Assembly (NCBI GenBank): GCA_026003195.1
Contig: BPGU01000004.1
Location: 382,317 to 446,316 of the forward strand
DNA length: 64,000 bases
Direction of reading: 5' to 3'
Source: Armatimonadota bacterium
GTDB lineage: Bacteria; Armatimonadota; HRBIN16
This document shows, piece after piece, positions 9,931 to 29,425 of the stretch. The translations under genes and the position numbers were made by a program. How positions within the stretch are numbered: the stretch's first letter is position 1; each line of letters begins with the position of its first letter. The notes under the pieces were generated by a model. That model had not been told where the DNA came from. It made no database searches and saw nothing but the letters and a program-made list of their open reading frames with translations.

Positions 9931-12153
9931 GTGAAAAGGTCTGGGCACTACGGATGGATAAGCATGTTGTGCCTCATCCTGCTGGGCATGAGCAGTCCCC
10001 TGTTGGCGAAAGTGGTGTATGTCTCCCCCCAGGGCGATGACCTGCAGGACGGTCTCTCCTGGGCGACGGCGAAGCGCACGGTGACCGCCGCGTTACAGAC
10101 GGCATTGCCCGGCGACCAGATATGGGTGCGCTATGGGTTGTATCAGGAGCGCATCACCCTCAAGAACGGCGTGGCGCTGTATGGCGGCTTCCGGGGCACT
10201 GAGAGCAGCCTCTCGGAGCGTCCCACCTTTCCCCGTCCCCAGCCTGACCCGTATGAGACCGTTCTGGACGGTGGTCAGGGTGGCAGTGTGGTCACCTCGC
10301 CCACTACCGCCAACCGCGCCTATCGGCTGGATGGTTTCACCATCCGCAACGGCAGTGCAGAGTATGGTGGGGGATTATACCTGACCTCCAGTGCGAACCT
10401 GCTCACGGTGGCAAACTGCACCCTCTCGGGCAACCGCGCTTCCAGAGACGGTGGCGGGGTGTATTGCTACTCCTCCTCCCCGGCGTTGACAGGGTGCACC
10501 CTCTCGGGCAACAGCGCTTCCTCCGGTGGCGGGGTGTATTGCTACAACTCCTCCCCGAGGTTGACAGGGTGCACCCTCTCGGGCAACAGTGCTTCCGGAG
10601 ACGGTGGCGGGGTGTATTGCGAGTACAACTCCTCCCCGACGTTGAGCGGGTGCACCCTCTCGGGCAACAGCGCTTCCTTCGGTGGCGGGGTGTATTGCTA
10701 CAACTCCTCCTCCCCGACGTTGAGCGGGTGCACCCTCTCGGACAACCGCGCCTCCAGCGGTGGCGGGGTGGCTTGCTCGTCCTCCTCCCCGACGTTGACA
10801 GGGTGCACCCTCTCGGGCAACCGCGCTTCCAGAGACGGTGGCGGGGTGTATTGCTACTCCTCCTCCCCGGCGTTGACAGGGTGCACCCTCTCGGGCAACC
10901 GCGCTTCCGACGACGGTGGCGGGGTGTATTGCGACTCCTCCTCCCCGGCGTTGACAGGGTGCACCCTCTCGGACAATAGCGCTTCCTTCGGTGGCGGGGT
11001 GGCTTGCTGGTATAACTCCTCCCCGACGTTGACAGGGTGCACCCTCTCGGGCAACCGCGCTTCCGACGGTGGCGGGGTGTATTGCTACCGATCCTCCCCG
11101 ACGTTGACAGGGTGCACTATCGCCTACAACAGCGCTTCCGACGACGGTGGCGGGGTGGTTTGCTACGACTACTCCTCCCCGACGTTGACAGGGTGCACCC
11201 TCTCGGGCAACCACGCTTCCGACGACGGTGGCGGGGTGTCTTGCTACAACCCCTCCTCCCCGACGTTGAGCGGGTGCACCATCGCCTACAACAGCGCTTC
11301 CTCCGGTGGAGGGGTGGCTTGCTACTCCTCCCTGACATTGACAGGGTGCACGGTCATTTACAACATGGCGAACATTGCCGGAGGAGGCGTCCGGACGAGC
11401 AGCACCAGCACGCGGGTGCGCAACACCATCCTTGCCTTCAATGCAGGAGGCGGTATCTCCGCCCCTGCCCTGTCCGATTTCCGCCACAACTGCGTGTGGG
11501 GAAACATGCCCTATAACTTCCAGGGAAACATCGGCAACCCCATCGGCAGGGACGGCAATATCTCCGAAGACCCGCTGCTGGTGGCGGGACACCTGCTGCC
11601 CGGCTCGCCCTGCATCGACAGGGGAGACAACAGCGTGGTGGGCACCGACACCGACATGGACGGCGAGGCGCGCATCCGCAACAGCACGGTAGACATCGGT
11701 GCGGACGAGTGTCACCCGCCCATCGTGCAGGGCTACCTGCTGTTCAACGATTTCGGGGCAAGCCTGCCGCTGTTCGTGGACTGGGAGATACGTGCGGGGG
11801 GTGTGCAGGCACGCACACTGCTGCTGGACCCCGACGGCGGTTTCGTGGTGGCGAATGTGCCGATGGGGCAGTTTGCGCTGTCGGTGAAGCCGTTGAGTTA
11901 CCTGCGTCGCACGGTGGAGGTGGACATCAGCAGGGGCAGTGTGCTGGGGTTGATGGTTGGGCTCACCAACGGCGACATTGACGGCGACAACGAGGTGACG
12001 CTGTTTGATTTCGGCAGGCTGGTGGCGTCGTTCGGCAGTACATCTGGTGATGGCAACTGGGACGCTCGTGCGGACCTGGACGGTGACGGCGAGGTGACGC
12101 TATTTGACTTTGGCGTGCTGGTGCGCAACTTCGGCGAGATAGGGGACGATTAG
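9931..12153 (+). CDS. Secreted repeat-rich beta-helix protein with C-terminal dockerin-like module
   Basis: 740 residues. GTG 9931 is 8 bp after AAAGGAGG and gives a signal peptide ending 'SPLLAK'; a GTG two codons earlier is less well spaced. After 'VYVSPQGDDLQDGLSWATA' (a DUF1565-like beta-helix entry) come about 13 rungs of the pattern 'GCTLSGNxAS..GGGVYCY.SSP.LT', each with two Cys in fixed places. Residues ~590-670 form a beta-sandwich-like linker and ~675-740 a dockerin-like pair of Ca-binding loops, 'GDIDGDNEVTLFDFG' and 'ADLDGDGEVTLFDFG'. The same C-terminal pair occurs on the WD40 protein at 22007-23422. The protein is probably at or outside the cell surface; ligand unknown. A TATAAT box (9855-9860) with weak -35 lies upstream. 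Confidence 0.85.
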   Translation: MKRSGHYGWISMLCLILLGMSSPLLAKVVYVSPQGDDLQDGLSWATAKRTVTAALQTALPGDQIWVRYGLYQERITLKNGVALYGGFRGTESSLSERPTFPRPQPDPYETVLDGGQGGSVVTSPTTANRAYRLDGFTIRNGSAEYGGGLYLTSSANLLTVANCTLSGNRASRDGGGVYCYSSSPALTGCTLSGNSASSGGGVYCYNSSPRLTGCTLSGNSASGDGGGVYCEYNSSPTLSGCTLSGNSASFGGGVYCYNSSSPTLSGCTLSDNRASSGGGVACSSSSPTLTGCTLSGNRASRDGGGVYCYSSSPALTGCTLSGNRASDDGGGVYCDSSSPALTGCTLSDNSASFGGGVACWYNSSPTLTGCTLSGNRASDGGGVYCYRSSPTLTGCTIAYNSASDDGGGVVCYDYSSPTLTGCTLSGNHASDDGGGVSCYNPSSPTLSGCTIAYNSASSGGGVACYSSLTLTGCTVIYNMANIAGGGVRTSSTSTRVRNTILAFNAGGGISAPALSDFRHNCVWGNMPYNFQGNIGNPIGRDGNISEDPLLVAGHLLPGSPCIDRGDNSVVGTDTDMDGEARIRNSTVDIGADECHPPIVQGYLLFNDFGASLPLFVDWEIRAGGVQARTLLLDPDGGFVVANVPMGQFALSVKPLSYLRRTVEVDISRGSVLGLMVGLTNGDIDGDNEVTLFDFGRLVASFGSTSGDGNWDARADLDGDGEVTLFDFGVLVRNFGEIGDD
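10417..11346 (+). repeat. Twelve tandem ~75-84-bp coding repeats in the beta-helix gene
   Basis: Each unit starts at the Cys codon of TGCACCCTCTCGGGCAAC and contains the constant core GGTGGCGGGGTG followed by a variable TATTGCTAC-type segment and TCCTCCCCG. Units are near-identical in DNA, not only in protein. Length changes come from extra codons after 'AS' and before 'SSP'. The thirteenth rung, from 11347, is divergent. The pattern suggests recent copying between units or slippage. Confidence 0.9.
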
Positions 12154-22006: not shown

Positions 22007-23422
22007 TTACTCATCTCCAATTGCGCCGAAGTTGCGCACGAGGATACCGAAGTCAAACAGCGTGACCTCTTCGTCCCCGTCCAGGTCGGCGTCGGGGTTC
22101 CAGTTATCGTCGCCGGGCATGCTTCCGAAAGCGGCAACCAGCACGCCGAAGTCGAATAGAGTCACCTCATTATCGCCATCGATGTCGCCGTTGAGCAGTT
22201 CGATACTCAGGTTGGTAACGCTGCCACCGCTGGTGTCTACCGAAAGCGTACGCCGCAGCCAGTGGCTCACCTTCACCGACAGGTCAAACGCTCCGCGGCG
22301 CGGTGCGGTAAAGCGGAAAACACCGCCCTCGCCGATGGCAACATCCACCCTCTGGAAAGGCTCGGTCTGTCCGGGCTCGCGCAGTTCAAAGGTCACGGAT
22401 GGCGGAAGCGTGCCTGCGTAATCGCCAAAGGTGATGGTGCCGCCTACTTTGGGCAGCGCGAAGGGGTTTCGCGCCAGCACCACACGCCCATCCGCACCGC
22501 CGTAGGCAAACGTCTCCCCATCCGGCGAGAAAGCCACCGAGTACACCGCTGAACTGGTCTCCTGATTGTACATCGCCAGCGGCGCGCCGTCGGAAACCCG
22601 CCACAGGCGCACTGTGCCATCCCGACCGCCGGAGACCAGCGTCTGACCGTCGGGCGAGAAGCTCACCCCGTACACCCAGTTGGTGTGACCGGTCAGGGTG
22701 CGCAACAGAGCGCCGTCGGAAACCCGCCACAGGCGCACGGTGTTGTCGAAGCTGGACGAGGCGAGCAGGCTGCCGTCGGGTGAGAAGTCCACCGCGGTGA
22801 TGCCGCTGGTATGCCCGGTCAGGGTACGCAACAGCACTCCATCCGACACACGCCAGACGCGGATGCCGCCGTTCTGCCCACCCGACGCCACCAGACTGCC
22901 ATCCGGCGAGAAGGCGATACAGCGTATCCACTCCGGGCTGCTGATGGTTTTGACGGGTGTATTGTTCGGTATCTGCCAGAACTTGATGAGACCATCGGTG
23001 CCGCCAGTGGCGACCAGACTGCCGTCCGGCAGGTAACGCACCGCGTACATGTACGCGCTGTGGCCCAGAAAGCTGGCAAGCAGAGTGCCATCCGTCACGC
23101 TCCAGAACTGTACCGTTCGTTCGAACAGCACATCGGTGAGGGTGCTTCCGTCGGGGGAGATGGCCAGTCCACGCACTGCGGTGCCTGCTGAGAAGTTTCT
23201 GACGAGCGCACCATCGGAAGCGCGGTACACCTTAGCGGTGGTGTCCTCACTGCCCGATGCCAGCAGACTGCCGTCCGCCGTAAAACTGAGCACGTTCACC
23301 CAGCTGGTATGCTGTTTGGTCATCCACACGATGTCGGGGCTTCCTTGGGCAAGTGCGGGAAGTATCAGGGCATACCAGAGGACACTCAGCGCGGCGAACC
23401 GAGAGACATGATGTGACCACAT
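22007..23422 (-). CDS. Secreted seven-bladed WD40 protein with dockerin-like C-terminus
   Basis: 471 residues from ATG 23422 (AAAGGAG 9 bp upstream). Signal peptide ending 'LPALAQ'. Residues ~33-315 hold seven WD40 repeats, with units such as 'TLTGHTSGITAVDFSPDGSL' and 'FDNTVRLWRVSDGALL', enough for one closed propeller. Then a ~75-residue beta module ('VGGTITFGDYAGTLPPSV' to 'LSVDTSGGSVTNLS') and two dockerin-like Ca loops, 'GDIDGDNEVTLFDFG' and 'ADLDGDEEVTLFDFG', ending 'VRNFGAIGDE'. The last ~140 residues are homologous to the C-terminus of the beta-helix protein at 9931-12153. WD40 propellers bind other proteins or glycans; here the partner is outside the cytoplasm and unknown. A consensus promoter precedes it. 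Confidence 0.88.
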   Translation of the reverse strand: MWSHHVSRFAALSVLWYALILPALAQGSPDIVWMTKQHTSWVNVLSFTADGSLLASGSEDTTAKVYRASDGALVRNFSAGTAVRGLAISPDGSTLTDVLFERTVQFWSVTDGTLLASFLGHSAYMYAVRYLPDGSLVATGGTDGLIKFWQIPNNTPVKTISSPEWIRCIAFSPDGSLVASGGQNGGIRVWRVSDGVLLRTLTGHTSGITAVDFSPDGSLLASSSFDNTVRLWRVSDGALLRTLTGHTNWVYGVSFSPDGQTLVSGGRDGTVRLWRVSDGAPLAMYNQETSSAVYSVAFSPDGETFAYGGADGRVVLARNPFALPKVGGTITFGDYAGTLPPSVTFELREPGQTEPFQRVDVAIGEGGVFRFTAPRRGAFDLSVKVSHWLRRTLSVDTSGGSVTNLSIELLNGDIDGDNEVTLFDFGVLVAAFGSMPGDDNWNPDADLDGDEEVTLFDFGILVRNFGAIGDE

Positions 23423-23470
23423 GACTTTCACTCCTTTCTCCTCTCGAAAAATGGGTTGCGAACCGTGCTC

Positions 23471-23499
23471 ATTGTAGATTTTCGCCCCAGATTTGTCAA
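23471..23499 (-). promoter_or_regulatory. Consensus promoter of the WD40/dockerin gene
   Basis: On the minus strand TTGACA (23499-23494), 17 bp, TACAAT (23476-23471), ~48 bp before the ATG. It is the closest match to the sigma-70 consensus in the window. Confidence 0.8.
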
Positions 23500-23542
23500 G
23501 CAATTTGAGCGACCAGGTGGGTCAATTTGTCAAAGTTGTCAA
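23493..23542 (+). promoter_or_regulatory. Cluster of TTGTCAA direct repeats in divergent promoter region
   Basis: TTGTCAA occurs at 23493-23499, 23527-23533 and 23536-23542, with GGGTCAA at 23519-23525. One copy overlaps the -35 box of the WD40 promoter. The spacing of 8-9 bp between the last three suggests a protein-binding array controlling the WD40 gene, the rhamnosidase gene, or both. Confidence 0.4.
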
Positions 23543-26600: not shown

Positions 26601-26885
26601 AGTGCAGTGCGCCCGGGGCAGAACAAGCTGGAAGTGCATGTCACCAACCTGTGGGTCAACCGCCTCATCGGCGATGAGCAGTATCCTGATGACTGCGAGT
26701 GGCAAGGAAGTCAGTTGAAAGCCTTCCCGCAGTGGTTTATCGAGGGCAAGCCGCGTCCCGTGCCTCAGCGGTTGACCTTCACTACCTGGAAGCACTGGAA
26801 CCGGGATGCTCCCCTGCGCCCATCGGGTTTGCTGGGCGAGGTGGAGGTGTATGCTGTTCGCAAGATGATGCTCCGATTGCGGTGA
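23613..26885 (+). CDS. Alpha-L-rhamnosidase, glycoside hydrolase family 106
   Basis: 1090 residues from ATG 23613 (GGAGGTT 8 bp before). Signal peptide ending 'LCMAD', so secreted. The start of the mature protein, 'GFRNPPNSAKPHTWWHWVND' then 'ITADLEAMKRAGIGG' and 'ELCIHNCAGWSSSGGPWV', is the GH106 signature; the (beta/alpha)8 barrel continues with 'SYEVGSQNWTPRFREEF' and 'VGAESFTATPEMG'. The C-terminal ~180 residues form a GH2-like sugar-binding beta sandwich ('LGEVKNLCEVWLNGKYLG', 'GQNKLEVHVTNLWVNRLIG'). GH106 enzymes release terminal L-rhamnose from pectins and other glycans. A lipobox is not evident, so it is probably periplasmic or released. The coiled-coil gene follows 22 bp later on the same strand. 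Confidence 0.9.
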   Translation: MRTVKMAWVVLCLTAALCMADSLEEGFRNPPNSAKPHTWWHWVNDNISKEGITADLEAMKRAGIGGAQIFHVDVGVPSGGVTFMSDRWREMIVHAVKEANRLGIELCIHNCAGWSSSGGPWVKPEHAMLIVVTRAVQVQGPRRFSEQLPQPERRAGFYRDIAVLAFPTPRGNLRIQNLRGKAAYDRHDNIQPVAESDAPAESVVAREGVLNLTALLEVDGRLTWDVPEGDWTILRVGYTPTGKDNHPATPEGRGLEVDKMSKEALDAFWNDGMMATVLRDVGVLAGKTLNNALVDSYEVGSQNWTPRFREEFQRRRGYDPLPFLPVFAGYVVGSPEISERFLWDVRQTVSELFVENYYGHFASLCRKHGLLFSTEPYGNGTFDDLAAGGRADIPMGEFWIGGGAQETAKLAASSAHIYGRSIVGAESFTATPEMGRWQNDPYSMKALGDHIFCLGVNRFIFHRYAHQPWLNVQPGMTMGPWGFHFERTNTWWEQGRAWLKYLARCQYLLQQGRFVADVAFYVGEHQPISATFRPDLRARGYDYDSLNREVLLRATVRDGRIALPSGMTYRLLVLPESRFMTPRVLRKVAELVRAGAVVLGPKPEKSPSLSRYPRCDEEVRRLAEEVWGNCDGVNVQEHAYGKGKVVWGKSVEQVLAEMKVLPDFVGSPGSRLDFIHRVVGDTDIYFVSNQRQRTEEVEAIFRVSGKIPQLWHPDTGVIEPAPVYRVQGGRTIVPLRLDPSGSVFVVFRKSAQPAQHFTMVRAPGAVQRKPSQLVIRRAVYEAVDGAGGADVTERLRTFVQNGTLSLNVNNTTMGGDPTPQHYKRLRVEYTLDGKEYTLIVNENADLEIPEREGAGVLPAYELRVDPRGKAELLAWRAGTYELRMPSGKTLRIQASSPVQTLKVQGAWSVHFPKGWGAPEKVVFDRLISWTEHPDPGVRYFSGTARYEKTLEIPSSLIAPDRRLYLSLGEVKNLCEVWLNGKYLGILWKPPFRVDITSAVRPGQNKLEVHVTNLWVNRLIGDEQYPDDCEWQGSQLKAFPQWFIEGKPRPVPQRLTFTTWKHWNRDAPLRPSGLLGEVEVYAVRKMMLRLR

Positions 26886-26907
26886 GGTATAATAGGAGCG
26901 GTGGCAG

Positions 26908-28152
26908 ATGATGGAAATACACACCGTTGACGATCTGATACAGATTCTGCGTGAACACCCGGAGTGGCGAGACCGCTTGCGGGACGTGCTCTTCACGGAA
27001 GAGGAGAAGCAGGCGCCCGATCGCTTGCGTCGGGTGGAGGAAGCCCTCGATCGTCTGACCCACAGCCACGAGCGAGCGATTTCGCGTTTAGAACGCCTGG
27101 AGGCGAGTGTGGAGAAACTGTGGGAGAGCCACCAGCAGGCGTTGGCGCGTTTGGAGAGGCTGGAGGCGAGTGTGGAGAAACTGTGGGAGAGCCACCAGCA
27201 GGCGTTGGCGCGTTTGGAGAGGCTGGAGGCGAGTGTGGAGAAACTGTGGGAGAGCCACCAGCAGGCGTTGGCGCGTTTGGAGAGGCTGGAGGCGAGCGTT
27301 GAGAAGTTATGGGAGAGCCACCAGCAGGCGTTGGCGCGTTTGGAGAGGCTGGAGGCGAGTGTGGAGAAACTGTGGGAGAGCCACCAGCAGGCGTTGGCGC
27401 GTTTGGAGAGGCTGGAGGCGAGCGTTGAGAAGTTATGGGAGAGCCACCAGCAGGCGTTGGCGCGTTTGGAGAGGCTGGAGGCGAGTGTGGAGAAACTGTG
27501 GGAGAGCCACCAGCAGGCGTTGGCGCGTTTGGAGAGGCTGGAGGCGAGCGTTGAGAAGTTATGGGAGAGCCACCAGCAGGCGTTGGCGCGTTTGGAGAGG
27601 CTGGAGGCGAGTGTGGAGAAACTGTGGGAGAGCCACCAGCAGCTTCTGGAGGAAGTTCGTGAACTCAAGCAGACTGTCGAACGCCTGACCAACTGGGTAG
27701 AGAGACTGAGCACCGAAGTTGGCAAATGGCGTGGCTACACGCTGGAGCTGCGCTTTCACCAGAGAGCCAGTGCGATACTGGGCTATTACGTCAAGCGTCC
27801 ACGTGTTGTGGACCTGGGGCTGTTTGTGGAGGACTTGTTGGATGCAGGCACACAGCTCACAGACAAGGAGAAGCAGGAACTACTGCAGATAGATGAGCTG
27901 GTCTCGGCAAAACATCCCCATACGGGAGAGCCTATCCACATCGCGATAGAAGTTTCGTGGATGATATTTCCCGCGGACGTGGAGCGCATCAGCAAGCGTG
28001 CTGCTATCCTGACACAGCACGGGGTGCAGACCTTTCCGGCGGTGGCAGGCGAAGGGATTACCCCCGATGCCAAAGAACTCGCCCAGCGAGAGAAAGTGCT
28101 GGTCATCCTGGACGGTGCGGTGGATATGTCTGACTATTCGTGGGTGCGGTGA
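26908..28152 (+). CDS. Repeat-expanded coiled-coil protein with nuclease-like C-terminal domain
   Basis: 414 residues. The N-terminal ~60 residues ('IHTVDDLIQILREHPEWRDRL') are helical. Residues 65-245 are eight perfect copies of a 21-residue heptad unit starting 'EASVEKLWESHQQALAR' plus a partial ninth, a long coiled coil. After 'RLSTEVGKWRG' the last ~140 residues form a compact alpha/beta domain with 'GLFVEDLLDAGT', 'IHIAIEVSWMIF' and 'KVLVILDGAVDM'. The order resembles DUF3782-type PD-(D/E)XK proteins, but the usual Lys after the Glu appears as Ser in 'EVS', so activity is doubtful. ATG ATG follows AGGAGCGG. Its TGA overlaps the folB start. Function unknown. Confidence 0.8.
   Translation: MMEIHTVDDLIQILREHPEWRDRLRDVLFTEEEKQAPDRLRRVEEALDRLTHSHERAISRLERLEASVEKLWESHQQALARLERLEASVEKLWESHQQALARLERLEASVEKLWESHQQALARLERLEASVEKLWESHQQALARLERLEASVEKLWESHQQALARLERLEASVEKLWESHQQALARLERLEASVEKLWESHQQALARLERLEASVEKLWESHQQALARLERLEASVEKLWESHQQLLEEVRELKQTVERLTNWVERLSTEVGKWRGYTLELRFHQRASAILGYYVKRPRVVDLGLFVEDLLDAGTQLTDKEKQELLQIDELVSAKHPHTGEPIHIAIEVSWMIFPADVERISKRAAILTQHGVQTFPAVAGEGITPDAKELAQREKVLVILDGAVDMSDYSWVR
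27100..27642 (+). repeat. Nine tandem 63-bp repeats encoding the coiled coil
   Basis: Units start at 27100, 27163, 27226, 27289, 27352, 27415, 27478, 27541 and 27604 (the last partial). Two DNA variants encode the same peptide: A (GAGTGTGGAGAAACTG) and B (GAGCGTTGAGAAGTTA), in order A A A B A B A B A. The alternating tail points to duplication of a 126-bp AB block. Copy number should change easily by slippage without shifting the frame. Confidence 0.95.
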
Positions 28153-28541
28153 TGGGAAGTGAAGCGAAGCCTGACACTATCCTGATAGAGGGCATCACCT
28201 TTCACGCCTATCATGGTGCCTCCGATGAGGAGCAGGCGATAGGTCATCGCTACAGCGTGGATGTGGTGCTGGAATACGACATCCTTCCTGCTGCCCAGAG
28301 CGATGACCTGTCGCGCACCATCAACTATTCGGCGGTGGCGAAGCGCGTGTTAGCCATCAGCACGGAGAACCAGTTTCGGCTGATAGAGACCTTAGCCGAA
28401 CGTATCGCCGAAGACATCCTGCAGAACTTTCCTGCATCGGCAGTAGAGGTCACCGTGCGTAAGGTGCTACCCCCCATGAAAGTACCCGCGCAAGCGACGG
28501 GGGTGAGGATCCGGAGGGAAAGACAGGGGGCGAGTAGATAA
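28152..28541 (+). CDS. folB: Dihydroneopterin aldolase
   Basis: 129 residues. It cleaves 7,8-dihydroneopterin to 6-hydroxymethyl-7,8-dihydropterin and glycolaldehyde in folate synthesis. Family marks: 'ILIEGITFHAYHGASDEEQ' with the substrate-binding Glu, 'TINYSAVAKRVLAI', 'LIETLAERIAEDIL' and the catalytic Lys in 'VTVRKVLPPM'. The ATG at 28152 shares its A with the TGA of the coiled-coil gene (TGATG), so translation is coupled. No other folate gene is near, though glyA, a folate user, lies 1.4 kb on. ORF upstream codons from 28140 are unlikely to be used. Confidence 0.93.
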   Translation: MGSEAKPDTILIEGITFHAYHGASDEEQAIGHRYSVDVVLEYDILPAAQSDDLSRTINYSAVAKRVLAISTENQFRLIETLAERIAEDILQNFPASAVEVTVRKVLPPMKVPAQATGVRIRRERQGASR

Positions 28542-28571
28542 GCCTGTGGCTACGTCAGGATGGACGCACTG

Positions 28572-29033
28572 CTATTCTTCCTGCTCCCCATACGACTCGA
28601 ACCGTTCGTCTGTCTCCTCGATATCCTCTTCGTCAAAAGGCTCCTCGCCGCGTAGGGCTAAGCGCACCAGGTACCAGCTGAACAGTCCGCAGGCAGTGCC
28701 CAGCGCAGATTTCGCCGGAATCCCTGAGGCAGAGACCAGCCACCTTGCATCCCAACGCAATCGGAGTAGCATCCACAAGATACCGCCCCAGATTAGAACG
28801 GTGGACACGATACCCACTACCCCTGCTAGCAGAACAATCACACGAAGTGCACCTTGGACCACAGGCGTGTGGACGCGGCGGTATCGAAGGTAGTCCACAG
28901 CGGTCAGGATACCTGCGGGCAGTACCAGAATAGTCCACACAATGATTAGCACGGCGGATATGGTATCGTGATTCAACCAGAATGCCAGGGCTGGGATGAA
29001 AACCAGCGCTAACAGCAACAGGGTGACTCGCAT
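28572..29033 (-). CDS. Small integral membrane protein of unknown function
   Basis: 153 residues from ATG 29033, 8 bp after AGAAGG. Four hydrophobic segments ('LLLLALVFIPALAFWL', 'VLIIVWTILVLPAGILT', 'LRVIVLLAGVVGIVSTVLIW', 'LGTACGLFSWYLVRLAL') and a very acidic C-terminal tail of ~20 residues ('EEPFDEEDIEETDERF'), probably cytoplasmic. No family recognised. It is convergent with folB and has no neighbour on its own strand. Confidence 0.65.
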   Translation of the reverse strand: MRVTLLLLALVFIPALAFWLNHDTISAVLIIVWTILVLPAGILTAVDYLRYRRVHTPVVQGALRVIVLLAGVVGIVSTVLIWGGILWMLLRLRWDARWLVSASGIPAKSALGTACGLFSWYLVRLALRGEEPFDEEDIEETDERFESYGEQEE

Positions 29034-29160
29034 TAGACTCACCTTCTCTGGGCGAGTTTAACCCTACCAAGCGTTGCTTCACACTGTTCTCTAGTGCTCT
29101 GTCAAGTCTCAATTTATTATAGACCACCCGTCGACTGGAAGTCGCTGGCACGTGCACAAA

Positions 29161-29197
29161 ACCCCTTTCGGGGGTGGATAACCTGCGCTAGCAGGTT
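29161..29197. other. Pair of hairpins in the gap before rpiB
   Basis: ACCCC/GGGGT (29161-29175, loop TTTCG) followed by AACCTGC/GCAGGTT (29180-29197, loop GCTA). They sit in a 422-bp gap (29034-29455) between divergent genes that otherwise holds only the rpiB promoter. A structured upstream RNA or two terminators of unseen transcripts are possible. Confidence 0.4.
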
Positions 29198-29395
29198 GCG
29201 TTCCCTGTTGCCCGCGATTTCCATCGCTGGGGCAATACCAACACCTTAAGGAAAAGATTTGACAAAGTACTACTATCTTGAGTGAGCAAATAGGAAGGAT
29301 AGCGGCTCCTGCGGTGGAGCAGCTACATACCCTGCTGGCACAGATGACGGGGCGTGCCGGGAGCGGAGAATAACCTGCCCATCAGATTCTCGTGC

Positions 29396-29425
29396 TTGCA
29401 ACACCTCCCCTTCTCATGTTACAAT
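29396..29425 (+). promoter_or_regulatory. Promoter of the rpiB-uppP gene run
   Basis: TTGCAA (29396-29401), 18 bp, TACAAT (29420-29425), about 24 bp before the rpiB ribosome site. It is the only evident promoter before seven closely packed genes ending at 35736. Confidence 0.7.

Follow-up and report, generated by a model that had tools for sequence, protein, structure and literature searches.

The DNA analysed here (the window) is a stretch of 64,000 nucleotides from an Armatimonadota bacterium of the HRBIN16 lineage (contig BPGU01000004.1), which carries, immediately upstream of folB, a gene for a 414-residue protein with a long, repeat-built coiled coil. The reading we favour, and consider rather probable, is that this is a stalked protein of PD-(D/E)XK type, belonging to a set of about nine paralogs in its genome, with an E-x-S site (serine in place of the motif III lysine), a coil that has grown in phase, and a stalk that serves as a spacer. 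The parts of the protein are as follows.

26908..28152, + strand: open reading frame of the stalked protein, 414 amino acids, by open reading frame call and translation
26911..27048, + strand: N-terminal helical module of about 45 residues (DLIQILREHPEWRDRLRDVLFTEE), common to the E-x-S and the lysine-bearing E-x-K paralogs of the same genome
27013..27780, + strand: coiled-coil stalk, with an AlphaFold helix at residues 36-291, a low-confidence break near residue 170 and 3.5-residue periodicity
27088..27654, + strand: nine 63-bp units of 21 residues each, A A A B A B A B A, by Tandem Repeats Finder (TRF) and unit-by-unit reading
27733..28149, + strand: C-terminal domain with predicted PD-(D/E)XK fold, by AlphaFold (predicted local distance difference test, pLDDT, 88), Foldseek against the PDB and hhalign (probability 94.6 to E-x-K relatives)
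27892..27894, + strand: D329, putative motif II (beta-2), D in 63 of the 66 family members with a residue there
27949..27957, + strand: E348-V349-S350, putative motif III with Ser for Lys, E in 68/68 and S in 66/68, aligning on EVK/ESK
27976..27999, + strand: D357, R360 and R364 in the helix after beta-3 (putative motif IV), D in 68/68, R in 67/68 and R in 68/68

The C-terminal domain

An earlier note on this DNA had proposed a nuclease-like C-terminal domain carrying the string IAIEVS, which is indeed encoded at 27940-27957. The AlphaFold model of the domain, with pLDDT values of 93-98 across most of its core, predicts the order helix, strand, helix, helix, strand, strand, helix, strand, helix, strand. 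When this model was compared with the PDB using Foldseek, the first five matches were to NucS/EndoMS and MspJI (probability 0.99-1.00, E 4e-3 to 8e-3), with PaqCI close behind and Can2, NucC and BbvCI among the weaker matches; taken alone, these matches are suggestive. A profile of 38 family members was also aligned by hhalign with a set of 12 lysine-bearing stalked nucleases, comprising the paralogs L117 and L118, their relatives and DUF3782-type proteins of the phylum. This alignment (probability 94.6, E 6.6e-8) places D on D at motif II, EVS on EVK and DVER on DVYR, and two smaller sets gave the same motif III pairing at probabilities of 64.5 and 69.8. One of the 12 relatives, L117, scores above the Pfam UPF0102/YraN cut-off, and at the profile level the C-terminal domain is homologous to known PD-(D/E)XK members. 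Together, the AlphaFold model, the Foldseek matches and the profile alignment make a PD-(D/E)XK fold a well-supported prediction, and because hhalign sets EVS on EVK, IAIEVS is by this alignment motif III with serine for the catalytic lysine.

The profile check against PD-(D/E)XK families that the earlier note had called for was positive with the E-x-K relatives and negative with the DUF1626, DUF3782 and NucS profiles, none of which matched the window protein. Likewise, no family in Pfam, NCBIfam or PADLOC claims the C-terminal domain, either in the window protein or consistently in its relatives. Matches of the full protein to SMC, Rad50 and ZapB-like models of Pfam and NCBIfam were discarded as coiled-coil background, as they were gone once the coil was omitted, and PDB sequence searches with the domain or its profile returned chance or coil matches only.

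Among 69 distinct members of the family, the motif I glutamate is present in 63 (with one Q), and the acids of motifs II and III and the three residues of the motif IV helix are conserved at the frequencies listed above. The serine position of motif III holds alanine in one member and proline in another, and lysine in none. The canonical catalytic signature D...(D/E)-x-K is thus broken in the window family through the replacement of its lysine by serine, and of the proposed nuclease-like domain it is the fold that is supported. Published variants relax this signature (PMC1913061, PMC1189080): a 2007 survey describes DUF1626 as having an N-terminal coiled coil, a domain of identical topology, a motif III lysine often replaced by threonine and a basic patch in motif IV, to which the lysine function is proposed to have moved (PMC1913061), and an earlier survey records PD-(D/E)XK proteins with replaced or migrated lysines as well as inactivated domains (PMC1189080). 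The lysine-bearing relative L117 shows the same D-x-x-R-x-x-x-R pattern as the window family, which counts against a simple migration of the lysine. Since IAIEVS has a serine where the catalytic lysine would be, nuclease activity is not to be assumed from the predicted fold, and the family makes a test case for whether cleavage can survive in a nuclease fold whose motif III is E-x-S.

The stalk, the gene and its relatives

The array is as first described, nine 63-bp units in two synonymous variants in the order A A A B A B A B A. TRF places it at 27083-27642 (8.9 copies, score 987), and unit-by-unit reading finds nine copies of LERLEASVEKLWESHQQ[ALAR] with starts at 27088 + 63n. The A and B units differ at 5 nucleotides, all synonymous (AGT/AGC, GTG/GTT, AAA/AAG, CTG/TTA), while the inner A copies are identical to one another, as are the three B copies. 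The first unit departs from A by 4 nucleotides near its 5' end and the last 4 codons of the ninth have diverged, the usual pattern at the ends of an array. The alternating AB part looks like a recent duplication of a 126-bp unit, and the array probably grew through unequal recombination of 63-bp and 126-bp units. The heptad coiled coil claimed for these repeats is borne out by a sharp hydrophobicity period of 3.5 residues in the stalk (power 411; the highest of 1000 shuffles reached 74) and by the AlphaFold helix.

Two other repeat-bearing places lie in the window. A second large array at 10417-11351 has a 78-bp period (12.1 copies, 82% matches, 5% indels by TRF), and a 498-residue open reading frame at 22007-23503 on the minus strand has WD40-like repeats (SPDGSLLASG), a dockerin-like C-terminal stretch and a 126-bp TRF repeat.

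Four further genomes of the genus have an ortholog at this locus, flanked as here by the GH106 gene and folB (HRbin16, L007/G003; L008/G009; L009/G005; L012/G006). These share the gene order of the window and have fewer repeats, with 0-2 units each against nine, and in two of the four the tandem traces amount to single 21-bp duplications; the expectation that repeat number varies between relatives was therefore correct. Measured between fixed anchors, the window coil has 255 residues, against 80, 108, 115 and 115 for the four ortholog coils. Each of the five lengths, verified by eye, equals 3 modulo 7, the differences being multiples of 7 only, and the expansion keeps the frame, as the earlier note had it. 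The 525-bp difference between the window and G005 is exactly 25 x 21 bp, with flanks 92-98% identical. The family-wide modulo-7 count is approximate, as at least one member (L030) was anchored on a misplaced motif match. Tandem arrays are present in 37 of 53 family genes, with periods of 7, 11, 14, 18, 21, 25, 28, 29, 35, 47 or 50 residues, every one of which can be written as 7a+11b (heptads plus hendecads), that is, as a coiled-coil period. Some half of the integers over this span can be written in that way, and the genes, being related, are not independent observations; we treat these periods as supporting evidence rather than as a formal test.

These comparisons support a stalk that acts as a spacer, with helix phase kept and length loosely constrained. 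The earlier note had likened the repeats to a molecular ruler; one of fixed length is not supported, since ortholog coils span 80 to 255 residues between the same anchors. Mechanism, in which the units available are already heptad multiples, and selection for an unbroken coil are inseparable in these data. The family provides a natural coiled-coil series whose length steps in exact heptads or hendecads, and which should be useful for asking whether length or phase is selected.

The setting of the gene adds three further features.

26888..26893, + strand: TATAAT, probable -10 box, right behind the stop of the upstream GH106 gene, called on conservation
28150..28154, + strand: TGATG, stop of the stalked-protein gene overlapping the folB start, present also in G005, G003 and G009
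28152..28541, + strand: folB, dihydroneopterin aldolase (PF02152 E 4e-33; TIGR00525 E 1.4e-29)

The reading frame and the TGATG overlap are present as originally reported, with the exception of the start, as the conserved start codon is probably the second ATG at 26911, which is favoured because the first is missing from the closest ortholog. Immediately behind the GH106 stop, GGTATAAT occurs in each of the five genomes where the gene is intact, and ahead of the remnant in G001, whereas the G004 pseudogene has GGTACAAT at this position. A sigma-70 scan found no paired -35, leaving the -10 call on conservation alone; the conservation of GGTATAAT in these six loci suggests that the stalked-protein gene and folB have a promoter of their own. 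The overlap occurs in four of the five intact loci, the exception being G006, where the folB ATG lies 2 nucleotides past a TAG stop. No ribosome site is visible before the window folB ATG, and its translation may for this reason depend on reading of the upstream gene; the folB genes of G002 and G007 have a GGAG-type site.

The stalked protein is under purifying selection: when its conserved parts are compared with G003 and G009, the ratio of nonsynonymous to synonymous substitution (dN/dS) is 0.05-0.11, the low level also seen for folB. Over ten genomes of the genus the folB-adjacent gene is intact in five, decayed in two and absent in three. The G004 copy is interrupted by stops and is missing the latter half of the domain, and G002, G007 and G008 have other DNA upstream of folB. 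In G001 (L099) an in-frame remnant of 44 codons ends a few nucleotides before the folB GTG start, and may keep the translational coupling. Paralogs in the window's genome adjoin rph-rdgB, lie near selD and aroA, or are found elsewhere, and in five paralog loci the neighbours, named by sequence rather than by profile search, are mostly metabolic or housekeeping genes. As five of the ten genus genomes lack an intact folB-adjacent gene and the paralogs have other neighbours, coupling as a functional requirement is unsupported; it is a matter of local gene order and incidental, folB being one of several housekeeping neighbours. Identity to G005 (L036) is 92-98% across 26801-29400 and 75-92% in the DNA upstream, and from this step the segment has probably recombined as a block between species.

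The N-terminal module has no Pfam match, is common to the E-x-S and E-x-K paralogs of the genome (E 3e-12 to 3e-6) and is matched at three further loci of that genome (E 4e-7 to 3e-6). L117 and L118, both of this genome, combine a coil with a C-terminal domain bearing EVK or ESK; the lysine-signature stalked paralogs L117/L122, L118/L133 and L123 share the module, and their relatives are matched in all ten genus genomes, with open frames of 199-579 residues. Beside selD and aroA-like genes, G005 has two tandem E-x-S paralogs (L111, 7008-9340) where the window's genome has one (L107), a difference due to recent duplication or loss. At L106/L121 (G000:C2 near 766100-766900) the N-terminal module of paralog L002 lies in another frame just upstream, in a 60-residue open reading frame, and this paralog may be frameshifted or split. 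A search of 291 genomes of the phylum finds the E-x-S family in 33, mainly in this genus and one other family and usually in several copies; two further genomes outside the phylum also have it. The Thermomicrobium roseum megaplasmid has three places of the family, the best of which is annotated as a hypothetical protein. A family present in these 33 genomes and reaching Thermomicrobium is left without a Pfam, NCBIfam or PADLOC model.

A model for the protein and its alternatives

We propose that the protein joins a short helical module at its N-terminus, by way of a long coiled coil, to a nuclease-fold domain with serine for the motif III lysine. The coil probably forms a dimer, and would pair two C-terminal domains while keeping them apart from the target of the N-terminal module. 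The C-terminal domain would bind nucleic acid, D329 and E348 forming a metal site and R360 or R364 perhaps substituting for the lysine, and would then be an altered nuclease or else a non-cutting binding domain. In this model coil length is loosely constrained and helix phase is what is kept, and folB would lie downstream through a lineage-specific gene order, translationally coupled in four genomes. Several observations weigh against this proposal. The Foldseek E-values are modest (none below 1e-3) and the template modelling (TM) scores low (0.25-0.48); the canonical lysine is found in no family member, which may mean that catalysis has been lost; and in the G005 ortholog EVP stands in place of EVS, with a higher dN/dS against the window (0.21-0.23). 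Dimerisation, nucleic-acid binding and a partner of the N-terminal module are only predicted, and the decay in G004, the 44 codons in G001 and the absence beside folB in three genomes mean that the gene is dispensable.

What the domain does can be read in two ways. It is quite possible that it is an active metal-dependent nuclease with a rearranged site, in which D329 and E348 hold the metal, R360 or R364 replaces the lysine and the stalk dimer cuts both strands. The near invariance of D, E, D, R and R over 69 members would be unusual in a dead site, and published families shift the lysine to motif IV, often as arginine (PMC1913061); against this, the D..R...R helix pattern also occurs in the lysine-bearing L117/L122, so that the arginines need not be a replacement, and the serine position is A or P in two members. 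Alternatively, and more tentatively, the domain may be catalytically dead and be used for binding nucleic acid or as an adaptor, while cutting falls to the lysine-bearing stalked paralogs of the genome, possibly in hetero-oligomers formed via like coils and the shared N-terminal module. The lack of any motif III lysine in 69 members fits this idea, as do the E-x-K paralogs with the same module in the genome (and relatives in 10/10 genus genomes) and the description of inactivated PD-(D/E)XK domains that possibly retain nucleic-acid binding (PMC1189080). However, the metal-binding acids are retained in 63/66 and 68/68 members, more than expected after loss of catalysis, and the E-x-S and E-x-K classes were never seen co-localised in the loci read. 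A further idea, which we regard as distinctly speculative, is that E-x-S proteins and lysine-bearing stalked paralogs of one cell work together as a combinatorial set, in which the shared module and like coils let different C-terminal domains pair, with phase rather than length under selection.

Compatible with either reading of the domain, the array may have arisen by slippage in a dispensable gene, nearly neutral and with no functional meaning, its in-phase lengths mirroring the units available for recombination. We think this somewhat unlikely: the threefold variation in coil length among orthologs, the decay of the gene in two genomes and the identity, hence recency, of the inner units agree with it, whereas purifying selection on the protein outside the array does not, nor do the arrays of other paralogs, which arose from other units (7 to 50 residues) and all have coiled-coil periods. 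The explanation offered in the earlier note, that the number of repeats defines a working distance and that coupling to folB secures constant expression, now appears very improbable. Repeat number does change without a frame break, and four genomes keep TGATG, but ortholog lengths range from 80 to 255 residues, adjacency to folB is absent or decayed in 5/10 genomes, a conserved TATAAT precedes the gene, and paralogs adjoin rph-rdgB, selD-aroA and others.

Comparison with known systems

NucS/EndoMS (PF01939), which is not known to have a coiled-coil stalk, is the best fold match of the predicted window domain, with about 15% identity over about 73 columns, and the NucS_C profile has no match in the window's own genome. 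A role in anti-phage defence was considered and rejected, as it has no PADLOC support and the neighbours in the five paralog loci are mostly metabolic or housekeeping genes; PADLOC models did not match the window protein, and one of the 38 members gave a weak LeoA match (E 0.006).

An anatomy of this kind, a coiled coil with a PD-(D/E)XK domain, is already known, because DUF1626 (PDDEXK_10, PF07788) has been described with nearly the same one (PMC1913061); the fixed E-x-S family is what is absent from the libraries searched. The window protein shares with DUF1626 the N-terminal coiled coil, the basic residues in the motif IV helix and a nuclease-fold domain in which the motif III lysine is replaced, often by Thr in DUF1626 and by Ser here. 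The PF07788 profile matched none of 31 genomes, including the window's own, and none of the 38 C-terminal domains. DUF3782 (PF12644; PMC4786415) likewise has a coiled-coil stalk before its PD-(D/E)XK domain, and nonad/beta-layer stalks are described for crenarchaeal members (PMC4786415). By profile alignment the C-terminal domains of DUF3782 and of the window protein are homologous, whereas the DUF3782 proteins examined are E-x-K and the window family is E-x-S without a PF12644 match. At the curated cut-off PF12644 has no match in the window's own genome; in other loci of the genus, L087 lies above the cut-off and L088, L090 and L091 below it. Parallels are also found within the same genus, where the stalked UPF0102/YraN-like paralogs L117/L122 and L118/L133 share the N-terminal module, a repeat-bearing coiled coil and a homologous domain with D and E, and in L117 also the D-x-x-R-x-x-x-R helix pattern of the window family, and differ from the window protein in keeping the catalytic lysine, as EVK or ESK.
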